Positions 28,301 to 54,210 of a stretch of DNA of 64,000 nt are shown one piece after another. The notes beneath the pieces are model-generated. The model was not told the origin of the DNA, ran no database searches, and saw only the letters and a program-made list of their open reading frames with translations. Position 1 is the stretch's first letter, and each line of letters begins with the position of its first letter. The stretch comes from Bacteroidaceae bacterium (GTDB lineage: Bacteria > Bacteroidota > Bacteroidia > Bacteroidales > Bacteroidaceae). The stretch is from positions 1 to 64,000 of the forward strand of contig JAFTYI010000018.1 in assembly GCA_017464815.1 (NCBI GenBank). The letters run 5' to 3'. The translations under genes were made by a program, and so were the position numbers.

Positions 28301-28346
28301 TTTTTCGGTCGGGAAAATCATGCAAAAACCGCCTTCTTCCTACCCT

Positions 28347-28461
28347 TTAGCCGCTAAGGTGTCGAGAGGTCAGCCGCTGACCTCTTGAGAGGACACGGGC
28401 TAACCGTCGGACACCTTAGCCGCTGACCACTTGAGAGGTTAGCCGCTGACCACTTTGTATC
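28347..28461. repeat. Five-unit array with 23-nt period and palindromic cores
   Basis: Units start at 28347, 28370, 28393, 28416 and 28439. Cores read TTAGCCGCTAA, TCAGCCGCTGA, a diverged ACACGGGCTAACCGT, and TTAGCCGCTGA twice; linkers are mostly TTGAGAGG. The second unit has 10-bp perfect arms (AGAGGTCAGC, C, GCTGACCTCT). T-to-C changes in left arms are matched by A-to-G in right arms between units 1 and 2. It lies downstream of the toxin gene. Confidence 0.8.
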
Positions 28462-36754: not shown

Positions 36755-37501
36755 TTATTCTCCCATTTCCATGTGGTGGCGCAGCTTGCGCCCTACCACG
36801 AAGGCACAGGCGAGGGCAATGATGGCTGCCAGTGCCAGCTCCGGGGCGGGCATGGTGGTGTAGTCGGGCGCGGTGCCGCGGCTTTCGTTGGTCACCATCT
36901 CCACCACGCTCAGGCTGTTGTTCACCACGTGGCCTATGATGGCCGGCCACAGGCTGCGGGTCTGCACGGTTATCCACCCCAAGGCGATGCCCATGGGGAT
37001 GGCAAAGAACACCTGTGCGGGGTTCACGTGGATGAGGCCGAAGAGCAGCGCCGAGAGCACGATGCCCCGCCAAGGCGACCTCCGGCCCCGGTTGAGCCGT
37101 TGCAGGATGGCTCCACGGAAGAGCAGCTCCTCCACCCATGGGGCCACCAGGGTTATGCCGGCCACGCCCAGCAGGTTGTGGCTCAGGTCGGTGAAGTCGG
37201 ATGCCAGCCAGTTGGGCAGTGTGATGAGTTCACTCAGGGCATTGCATCCTATCATGGTCGACAGGGTGCAGACGATGCAGCACAGCATGGAGTTCAGCCC
37301 CACGGGGCGGAAGCTCTGCCTCAGGTCGACGTAGCGGCCTGCCACGAGGTGCACCGTCATGGCTGCCCCCGACAGCAGCAGGCTCAGGGCCAGCTGGGTC
37401 GTCGGCCCCACGGGCCACAGCTGCGACAGCCCCATCATGGCAGCCCCGAAGAGCAACTGATAGGCGAAGTAGAGGAGCAGTAATTTGATAGCTGTTTTCA
37501 T
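36755..37501 (-). CDS. CPBP-family intramembrane metalloprotease
   Basis: A 248-residue polytopic membrane protein with about seven hydrophobic segments and the Abi/CPBP signature: PWVEELLFRGAIL (EExxxR), LFGLIHVNP (FxxxH) and IIGHVVNNSLS (HxxxN). Such proteins relate to Rce1-type prenyl proteases and to bacteriocin self-immunity; the substrate here is unknown. It heads the run CPBP, M16 peptidase, GH127. A TTACTTTG box resembling a -10 lies near 37534 on the minus strand. Confidence 0.9.
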   Translation of the reverse strand: MKTAIKLLLLYFAYQLLFGAAMMGLSQLWPVGPTTQLALSLLLSGAAMTVHLVAGRYVDLRQSFRPVGLNSMLCCIVCTLSTMIGCNALSELITLPNWLASDFTDLSHNLLGVAGITLVAPWVEELLFRGAILQRLNRGRRSPWRGIVLSALLFGLIHVNPAQVFFAIPMGIALGWITVQTRSLWPAIIGHVVNNSLSVVEMVTNESRGTAPDYTTMPAPELALAAIIALACAFVVGRKLRHHMEMGE

Positions 37502-37707: not shown

Positions 37708-37903
37708 GACATCAAGATGTCACCCTCAGCGACATCAAGTTCCCACCCTCGGTGACATCAAGTTCCCACCACTGGTGACATCAAGTTCCCTCCTGAGGAG
37801 ACATACGTATGTCACCTCATGGGACACACGTGTGTCATGAGTGGGGAGACACGTGTCTCTCTTGAGGGGACACACGTGTGTCGTCGCAGCGACTTACGTA
37901 AGG
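37708..37903. repeat. Nine-unit array with 23-nt period and palindromic 14-mers
   Basis: Units of 14 bases start at 37708, 37731, 37754, 37777, 37800, 37823, 37846, 37869 and 37891, separated by 9-base linkers (8 before the last). Cores include GACATCAAGATGTC, GACATCAAGTTCCC (three times), GACATACGTATGTC, GACACACGTGTGTC (twice), GAGACACGTGTCTC and GACTTACGTAAGG. Linkers resemble TCTTGAGGG, ATGAGTGGG, TCCTGAGGA. The array ends 3 bases past the permease stop, so it would be in that gene's 3' region. Confidence 0.9.
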
Positions 37904-37906
37904 GGT

Positions 37907-39169
37907 TCAGCGGGTCACCCCGAAGCCTATGTTCTCCACGGCTTGGCGGACGGCTTCGGGTGATGGGTTGCCGTGGATAATGGCTTGAGCGTCAGCGAGA
38001 TTCACCTCCACGCTTGTCACTCCCGGCACGGCCTTGATGGCCTGCTCCACATTGGCGCGGCAGTGGTTGCAGCTCATGCCGGTGATGTGCAGTGTGAGCA
38101 CCTCGTCCGCCTCGGTGGAGTGGTGGCAAGCCTCGTCGTGGCAGTGGCAGTGGGCGTGGCCGCAGCCCCCCTTATGGAAGTAGCGGAGCCACAAGGCATG
38201 GAGTAAAAGAAGTAGTAAAACAACCGAACAAACGACGTTAAACCAAGGCGTATGCTCGTGGCAGCAACTCTGCATGGCCTCCAGGTGCGAGGTGAACCAG
38301 TGGCGGGGCAGCAGGTAGTCGATGGTGAGTGCAAACCCCACGGCTCCGCTCACGATGGATAGCAGGTAGAGCATCAGCGTGCGCAGGCCCATCACCTTTC
38401 TCACCACCAGCATCGAGGCCACATTGACGGCCGGGCCGGCCATCAGCAGCACCAGTGCCGTGCCGGGTGAAAGCCCCTTCAGCATCAGCGCCACGGCGAT
38501 GGGGATTGAGCCCGTGGCACACAGGTACATGGGCACGGCGCAGGCCAGCACCACCACGATGCTGAGCACCGTGTTGTCGGCCAGCAGGGCAAACACCGAG
38601 TCGGGCACGTAGGCCGTGATGAGGCCGGCAATGACGAGGCCCATGACGAGCCACCGTCCGATGTCCTGCATCATCTCAACGAAGGCATAGTGGAGTGCTT
38701 CGCGGACGCGGGCGAAGAATCCCATCCTCGGCCGCTCCTCCTCCTCGGCCACGGGGGCAGTGGCGGTGGGGGTGGGCGTGGTGTCCAGCCAGTTGACCAG
38801 CTGTCCGCCCAACAGCGAAGTGACGATGGCCACCAACGGACGCATCAGGGCAAAGGGCAGGCCCATCAGCGAATAGGTGGCAATGATGGAGTCGACCCCC
38901 GTCTGCGGAGTGGCAATGAGGAACGACACGCTGGCCCCCTTCGACGCCCCCTGTCTGTAGAGCGACATGGCAGTGGGAATCACGCCACACGAGCACAGGG
39001 GGATGGGCAGGCTCAGCAGCATGGCATTCGTCACCGAGCGGAAGTTGGGCTGTCCCAAGTAGCGATGGTAGAGGTGAGTGGGGATAAACGCGCGCATCAG
39101 GCCTGCCAACAGGAATCCCAGCAGCAGGTAGGGCGACATCTCGTTCATGAGGTCTATTATTTCATGCAT
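37907..39169 (-). CDS. SO_0444-type Cu/Zn efflux permease with HMA domain
   Basis: A 420-residue protein: two permease repeats, each with conserved SLPIPLCSCGVIP-like and YLCATGSIPIA motifs and about eight membrane segments, then a His/Cys-rich cytoplasmic stretch (GCGHAHCHCHDEACHH, about 335-350) and a heavy-metal-associated domain with GMSCNHC. Families of this architecture (DUF318 permease plus HMA) are assigned to Cu/Zn efflux. The His-rich loop supports soft-metal binding. A -10 box TACCTTTG (minus) is at 39207-39214. It ends at the palindromic array. Confidence 0.9.
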   Translation of the reverse strand: MHEIIDLMNEMSPYLLLGFLLAGLMRAFIPTHLYHRYLGQPNFRSVTNAMLLSLPIPLCSCGVIPTAMSLYRQGASKGASVSFLIATPQTGVDSIIATYSLMGLPFALMRPLVAIVTSLLGGQLVNWLDTTPTPTATAPVAEEEERPRMGFFARVREALHYAFVEMMQDIGRWLVMGLVIAGLITAYVPDSVFALLADNTVLSIVVVLACAVPMYLCATGSIPIAVALMLKGLSPGTALVLLMAGPAVNVASMLVVRKVMGLRTLMLYLLSIVSGAVGFALTIDYLLPRHWFTSHLEAMQSCCHEHTPWFNVVCSVVLLLLLLHALWLRYFHKGGCGHAHCHCHDEACHHSTEADEVLTLHITGMSCNHCRANVEQAIKAVPGVTSVEVNLADAQAIIHGNPSPEAVRQAVENIGFGVTR

Positions 39170-46213: not shown

Positions 46214-46386
46214 CAAGGTTTAAGGTTCAAGGTTCAAGGTTTAGGGTTTAGAGTTTAGGGTTTAGAGTTTAGGGATTTCAGAACTAACTCCCTCCACCTT
46301 ACACCCTCCACCTTACACCTTACACCCTCCACCCTCCACCCTCCACCTTACATTTATAATTAATAATTCACAATTCATAATTAATC
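46214..46386. repeat. Telomere-like heptamers, C-rich repeats and AT-rich tail
   Basis: Three blocks fill the gap: 46214-46274 is a run of AAGGTTC/AGGGTTT/AGAGTTT heptamers; 46288-46352 repeats CCTCCACCTTACAC and CCTCCAC; 46353-46386 is AT-rich with AATTCACAATTCATAATTAAT. Similar AAGGTTCAAGG pieces occur at 9383-9408. No gene or terminator is visible. Confidence 0.85.
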
Positions 46387-54075: not shown

Positions 54076-54122
54076 TGGGCGTCTGCTTTTTGAAGCTGAT
54101 ACACCGATTGAATACAAAAAAA

Positions 54123-54210
54123 TAGGAAAACGCACCTTTTTGAGGGCTAATTTTATAGGAAAACGCACCTTTTTAGCCTGATTTTTTATAGGAAAACGCA
54201 CCTTTTTATG
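54123..54210. repeat. Three-copy 33-bp tandem repeat TAGGAAAACGCACCTTTTT
   Basis: Copies start at 54123, 54156 and 54189, exactly 33 bases apart. The first 19 bases of each are identical; the remaining 14 are T-rich and vary. Read on the minus strand one frame gives an 11-residue repeat with KKVRFPI. The block lies between the convergent DUF3316 and TPR regulator genes. Confidence 0.92.

Follow-up and report, generated by a model that had tools for sequence, protein, structure and literature searches.

What maintains a row of nine 14-bp units, several of them perfect palindromes, at an almost invariant step of 23 bp next to the stop codon of a metal permease gene, and is there a molecule that reads it? 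This question is raised by positions 37,708–37,904 (no strand assigned) of the window, which is the whole stretch of 64,000 nucleotides of Bacteroidaceae DNA analysed here. A preliminary description of this DNA had reported nine 14-mers with a 23-base period, a last step of 22 and 9-base linkers. This geometry is confirmed by the unit starts (37,708, 37,731, 37,754, 37,777, 37,800, 37,823, 37,846, 37,869, and 37,891), which give seven steps of 23 and a final step of 22, by TRF, and by a lag scan from 15 to 39, in which the array stretch shows up only at lag 23.

The array in the window and its relatives in other genomes

The nine units fall into three types. Four AAG-type units (GACATCAAGATGTC once and GACATCAAGTTCCC three times; 37,708–37,790) are followed by four ACGT-type units (GACATACGTATGTC, GACACACGTGTGTC, GAGACACGTGTCTC, and again GACACACGTGTGTC; 37,800–37,882), every one a perfect palindrome, and by a degenerate final unit, GACTTACGTAAGGG (37,891–37,904), which is preceded by the 22-bp step. 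The five perfect or near-perfect palindromes counted previously thus resolve into four perfect ones among the nine units (at 37,800, 37,823, 37,846, and 37,869) and the first unit, in which six of seven positions pair. The three neighbouring units described as non-palindromic are the GACATCAAGTTCCC units, and the last unit is likewise non-palindromic. That such units represent an older state is not clearly so, since GACATCAAGTTCCC words make up seven arrays in the own genome and also precede a gene of the HU-HIG family discussed below; they may rather be read as two different half-sites facing one another. Four consecutive units of the window score 28 of 28 paired positions, and 60 resamples generated from the whole window with an order-1 Markov model reached at most 22 as their best four-unit score over steps 16–40. 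As had been noted, the array adjoins the stop codon of a metal permease gene: it ends two bases beyond the stop of an SO_0444-family Cu/Zn efflux transporter with a C-terminal metal-binding domain, named by profile (37,907–39,169, minus strand). This gene is regarded as a neighbour and is not thought to be part of the array system. A gene for a CPBP-type membrane protease, for which all NCBIfam matches lie under their cut-offs, flanks the array on its other side (36,755–37,501, minus strand).

The window contains further repeats. A second array with a step of 23 and the odd-centred palindromic core GGTCAGCCGCTGACC is located at 28,341–28,455 and has no cognate among the HU-HIG loci fetched, and a two-unit array with a step of 21 (TAATCAGCAGTGGTGATTA; 8–47) resembles the core before an HU-HIG gene of the same genome (L393); neither has an assigned strand. 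Moreover, adjoining heptamer tracts of GGTTTAG and CCCTCCA, with about eight imperfect copies each, are present at 46,217–46,347, and a 33-nt repeat beginning with ATAGGAAAACGCACCTTTTT occurs in 2.6 copies at 54,122–54,208. Elsewhere in the own genome (G000; 2.63 Mb, 79% complete), seven arrays consist of AAG words (contigs C15, C24, C37, C39, C42, C49, and C56), and ACGT words at step 23 are found on C14, C24, and C49. A match to the FopS small RNA (RF04319; L149:1864–1930) ends about 60 bp before the C24 array. The own genome also holds a CTTAAG family of dispersed step-22 arrays that are alike in their linkers too, at nine loci (L245–L250, L253, L262, and L268; seven at E 1e-10 or better, two more by eye), and no HU-HIG cognate was found for these nine loci.

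Arrays were sought over 1,518,207 bases at steps 16–40 with a detector requiring three similar palindromes at a single step. It returned 27 arrays at steps 21 (3), 22 (13), and 23 (11), three at step 18, and none at any other step. The scan includes stretches chosen for having hits (L176–L178 of G008, L185 and L186 of G003) or for holding a permease relative (L066–L145, with L100, L109, L112, and L119 excluded), and one of the 27 arrays (L104) comes from a metagenome-assembled genome (MAG) named only to order. A mirror-symmetry control returned a single array at step 23, none at 21 or 22, and four outside this range. No arrays were detected in 325,073 bases sampled from other Bacteroidales families, nor, at steps 21–23, in 180,072 bases sampled outside the Bacteroidota. 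Three ACGT centres at step 23 occur in 16 of 150 genomes searched, the own genome counted in; one genus member has no ACGT-centre arrays, but 51 matches to the reversed pattern with TGCA centres. In G085, a relative that was sampled, cores are mostly private to a single array. Across the class, the step is constant and the core variable.

The placement of the arrays was examined in 49 stretches of 954,554 bases with 25 arrays, 20 of them in gaps of at least 120 bp, three inside called open reading frames, and two at edges or in short gaps. The genes around the 20 arrays are codirectional in nine cases, divergent in seven, and convergent in four, and gap length predicts fractions of 0.48, 0.31, and 0.20; since the orientation matches gap lengths, a role as promoter or terminator element was rejected for the class as a whole. 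Flanking genes could be named on one or both sides of 18 arrays. HU-HIG or HU_rel genes adjoin four of these, glycoside hydrolase 43 and fucokinase-type genes two each, and a sigma factor and a penicillinase repressor one each. No cas gene is among the named flanks, and the 9-bp linkers are too short for spacer matching as in a CRISPR comparison. A fucokinase-type gene is preceded by arrays with different words in L152 (G000) and L163 (G002), which is perhaps another shared slot. A phage origin was rejected as well: viral contigs gave no match for the AAG pair or the CTTAAG pair and a single match for the ACGT pair, in DNA that resembles host DNA and that carries, judging gene names by eye, an mnmE-like gene beside an integrase.

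Turnover of the arrays and symmetry of their half-sites

Between neighbouring units, core positions are 70–96% identical (22 of 28 positions at least 80%) and linker positions 33–69%, a comparison that favours the cores, as the detector itself demands similar cores. The permease slot of the nearest relative (G005; permease 85% identical) also contains nine units, of which one was dropped for the best core match; cores agree at 98 of 112 positions and linkers at 37 of 72. The same stretch is seen in a Bacteroidaceae MAG from sheep rectum (L066). At the permease slot of L067 other words are present (GCCTCCGCGGAGGC), a core that also precedes an HU-HIG gene of G013 (L431), and L068 has no array at this slot. 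Before rarA, the detector reported arrays in two of 18 genomes (8+4 units in the own genome, five in G012), and an alignment revealed 3+2 units in G013. After rplS, four of eight genomes have arrays with four different cores (detected automatically in G002 and G006, only with a looser threshold in G004, and by eye in the own genome); the own rplS array and that on C56 consist mostly of non-palindromic units, so that they escaped the palindrome detector and were seen by eye. The S1-like gene beside the C24 arrays was compared with seven relative loci in six genomes, all of which lack an array. These slot comparisons show that arrays come and go and that their words change, and that arrays held in common keep their cores against drift.

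The symmetry of the units could be maintained by base pairing in RNA or by a dimeric protein, and the preliminary description had suggested both on the basis of paired changes that keep the symmetry. Such changes are seen in the four ACGT units of the window and between arrays, where shuffling halves pooled across arrays (67 distinct units) lowers pairing at pairs 1, 5, 6, and 7 of the seven. They are not seen within arrays: in 116 units of 20 arrays, 605 pairs were observed, and shuffles of the right halves inside each array gave a mean of 606.7 (P 0.63), with only pair 6 in excess when pairs are taken singly (P 0.017). A dimeric reader explains both the independence of the halves within an array and the difference of both halves between arrays, and an RNA stem fails the first. 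A homodimer with a drifting preference would also give between-array changes in both halves. Tandem hairpins at the RNA level, as part of a 3′ UTR, a terminator, or a small RNA, would suit an array that comes after a permease stop codon, whose perfect palindromes are able to fold and whose relatives change in both halves together. Against this stand the missing covariation within the 20 arrays, the AAG units, which are mostly unpaired, the flanking-gene orientation expected from gap lengths, and an Rfam search with no match to the array above its thresholds. By the within-array shuffle and the Rfam search this reading was rejected, and we regard it as very improbable; maintained base pairing is disfavoured, and dyad symmetry for a dimeric protein is favoured over it.

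HU-HIG genes and the arrays upstream of them

The four arrays next to HU-HIG or HU_rel genes are located in G002, G008, G085, and G000, and in each case the gene begins about 66–97 bp past the array. A profile search of seven genomes returned 132 matches to the HU-HIG family, 14–22 per genome, of which 17 are in the own genome and a few are ordinary HU; other genera have 3–12 family matches each. Sixty of the 132 were fetched (15 from G000, 12 from G008, 18 from G085, and 15 from G013; G002, G003, and G005 were left aside), and upstream DNA was not a criterion in this choice. An array of step 21–23 lies at most 450 bp upstream of 30 of these 60 genes (nine in G000, nine in G085, seven in G008, and five in G013), or of 28 of 57 without the three genes that raised the idea; some of the 30 are marginal, and one (L387) is an AT tract. 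The same detector found no upstream array for the other 30. Among sampled control genes, upstream arrays were found for 24 of 611 in all stretches (17 of 179 where the gap is at least 250 bp) and for 23 of 428 in G085 and G000 alone (16 of 116 with such gaps), and a Fisher test against the two-genome controls gives 2e-17 for all genes and 5e-7 for large gaps. Downstream of HU-HIG genes an array is present in one of 58 cases. Within 700 bp upstream, a scan of steps 15–40 called steps of 17 (one gene), 21 (7), 22 (9), 23 (15), and 24 (3), and none at any other value. Most HU-HIG upstream arrays have a core of their own, and one core is common to three G085 paralogs. These counts link the array class strongly to HU-HIG promoters. 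Upstream of two near-identical HU-HIG genes of the own genome (L389 and L390), direct repeats of CGGAACTGTG or similar at about 11 bp, half the usual step, and no palindromes are visible by eye.

In a second set, drawn from Bacteroides sp., Phocaeicola plebeius, Paraprevotella, Prevotella, T. forsythia, G022, and G026, arrays were found at nine of 21 HU-HIG genes within 700 bp and at seven within 450 bp, with one of the calls (L462) being a simple repeat of step 20. One of nine ordinary HU genes has an array, of step 25, and the HU-HIG genes examined from T. forsythia, Paraprevotella, and Prevotella have none.

The step follows the phylogeny of the proteins. On a tree of the 60 proteins, with a step called for 34 genes, seven step changes are needed, and 1000 shuffles need at least 12. 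Six members of a clade of seven have step 21, and in a clade of 16 that includes the candidate binder of the window array 11 members have step 23 and two have step 24, the remaining three being without a call; step 22 alone is unclustered, with 8 changes against a shuffled mean of 8.6. This clustering could alternatively result from promoters copied along with their genes. Motif similarity declines with protein distance (33 genes, rho -0.17; one of 500 permutations as low), with some word sets including flank units. For 12 proteins of the wider clade, core similarity correlates with similarity of the N-terminus, the body, and the arm alike (equalled in 5, 29, and 8 of 2000 permutations, respectively), and within the seven-member G085 clade no segment of the protein follows the core significantly. 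Two G085 paralogs, L403 and L407, are 91% identical with identical arm segments, their differences being densest in the first 30 residues; their arrays are equally distant from the genes but differ in words, which implies that recognition lies elsewhere in the protein or that these proteins do not read the sequence. Our hypothesis is that each HU-HIG protein would read its own word.

A candidate binder of the window array is encoded at C56:53630 of the own genome. This HU-HIG gene (L384) specifies 173 residues with a glycine-rich tail, and it scores 68.5 bits against the HU-HIG Pfam profile (cut-off 26.2) and 62.8 bits against TIGR01201, which is under the cut-off of 68.6. Five units, GACATCAAGATGTC, three copies of GGGAACTTGATGTC, and GACATCTTGATGTC, start 97–189 bp before it; allowing for strand they represent two words, and both are words of the four AAG units of the window. 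The detector misses this array, so that it stands outside the count of 30 in 60. ACGT words precede related HU-HIG genes in G002, G008, and G085, and in the own genome the search turned up no HU-HIG gene preceded by an ACGT-type array. Both unit types of the window may be bound by a single protein or by a close paralog of it. The sampled stretches of G085 and G000 contain 19 dispersed arrays. Two of these, including the window's own array, agree to within one mismatch with an array fetched from an HU-HIG promoter in their genome, and for the other 17 no cognate was found; with stretches chosen for hits added, six of 24 match (28 rows minus three promoter arrays and one duplicate).

Possible readers of the arrays and comparison with known systems

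We propose, as a reading that we hold to be somewhat more probable than its negation, that dimers of a protein from the HU-HIG branch of the HU/IHF superfamily bind the array, which would be one of their dispersed sites; this predicted binding is suggested by the many arrays that directly precede genes of such HU-like proteins. Each 14-mer would consist of two inverted half-sites read by one dimer, and dimers at the fixed 23-bp centre-to-centre spacing would touch and bind cooperatively. An array at an HU-HIG promoter would then serve autoregulation, and dispersed arrays, which have no gene-orientation bias, may form nucleoprotein patches that help to organise the chromosome. Unit number would vary as in minisatellites, and half-site words would drift as the preference of the protein drifts; arrays of GACATCAAG and GACACACGTGTGTC are the predicted preferred targets of the L384-type protein. 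A wider and more tentative proposal, which we consider rather doubtful as a whole, is that some Bacteroidaceae possess a many-paralog, sequence-specific chromatin system. In this system 12–20 HU-HIG proteins per genome would each recognise a private palindromic word, provided that it recurs at a clade-specific step of 21–24 bp, and would autoregulate from their own promoter array, some paralogs would hold dispersed arrays, and words would be replaced from one species to the next, much as in an arms race or a self-labelling code.

The arrays could instead be operators of another dimeric DNA-binding family, with HU-HIG promoters as merely frequent hosts, for example because HU-HIG genes are regulated by that family. 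Most dispersed arrays have no HU-HIG cognate, close HU-HIG paralogs have different cores, and 14-bp sites at steps of 22–23 bp also fit helix-turn-helix (HTH) repressors such as phage 434 CI, all of which this explanation would accommodate; however, the array step tracks the HU-HIG clade while cores turn over, and next to the 18 flank-named arrays HU-HIG or HU_rel genes appear four times and the sigma factor and penicillinase repressor once each, so that we judge it unlikely. Less likely still is a minisatellite or MITE without a host role, similar to the BrickBuilt element, whose units would arise by slippage and spread as mobile DNA. Its merits are the unit number before rarA, which varies between species (8+4, 3+2, 0+5), the CTTAAG arrays as dispersed copies with similar linkers, and a step of 23 nt that BrickBuilt, in the part of its description available, likewise has. 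Yet slippage leaves unexplained the conserved cores with drifting linkers, the symmetry, and steps confined to 21–24, and the link to HU-HIG promoters also speaks against it. Moreover, the 200-bp flanks of ten AAG and ACGT arrays have no boundary sequence, leader, tail, or terminal repeat in common, with one weak 29-nt match between two of them, and terminal inverted repeats of the BrickBuilt type like GAGACCTTTGCA are not enriched in the window (nine matches with at most two mismatches, 6.4 expected), none adjoining the array. Given the lack of common flanks or terminal repeats, the MITE reading was rejected.

If binding by HU-HIG dimers is true, proteins of the HU/IHF nucleoid type, the textbook weak-specificity DNA benders, would have diversified within a major family of gut bacteria, giving rise to many sequence-specific factors that have tandem operator arrays private to them. 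They would provide a natural library of protein/DNA-word pairs for how the HU fold reads sequence and a testable model for chromosome organisation in the Bacteroidaceae, and an intergenic repeat class without a description among the literature matches listed would be explained.

The earlier statement that no named repeat class has these properties is in line with our literature search, in which neither a description of the array class nor of HU-HIG binding sites was present among the matches listed. The nearest known element is the BrickBuilt MITE of Porphyromonas gingivalis, which, in the part of its description available, is an intergenic element with a 23-nt tandem step, 19 copies in strain ATCC 33277, and a strain-variable unit number, its spacer-less repeats lying within a leader and a tail with IS5-like terminal repeats (PMC4596501). 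The present array shares the 23-nt tandem repeat. On the points covered by this description, the arrays studied here differ by 9-bp linkers, many cores per genome, steps of 21–24, and their position before HU-HIG genes. A repeat of Prevotella intermedia was set aside since its unit, in the part of the source available, is 188 bp.

Palindromes clustered in intergenic regions are also typical of REP/BIME elements with their RAYT transposase, for which we know of no fixed step of 21–24. The transposase domain Y1_Tnp is not consistent among array-bearing genomes (none in G002 and G012, one weak partial match of 27.5 bits in the own genome, weak matches in G003 and G005, and a clear match of 83.5 bits in G008), and the RAYT/REP reading was rejected. 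The operators of phages 434 and lambda consist of palindromic sites of 14–17 bp at 22–24 bp, with conserved outer bases and a variable centre. They comprise three sites at one promoter that are read by an HTH repressor, whereas the arrays have three to nine sites at many loci and a candidate reader with an HU fold. HU and IHF are known to bind DNA as dimers, and ordinary HU is hardly sequence-specific; the clades of HU and IHF were reportedly surveyed in 2017 by Burroughs and colleagues. HU-HIG (PF18291) and HU_rel (TIGR01201) proteins belong to the same superfamily by profile, and a profile of 13 HU-HIG proteins matches IHF/HU chains with a best value of 3.8e-9. In contrast to ordinary HU, the array-rich genomes hold 14–22 family matches, many with an upstream palindrome array, which each of these proteins may recognise as its own.
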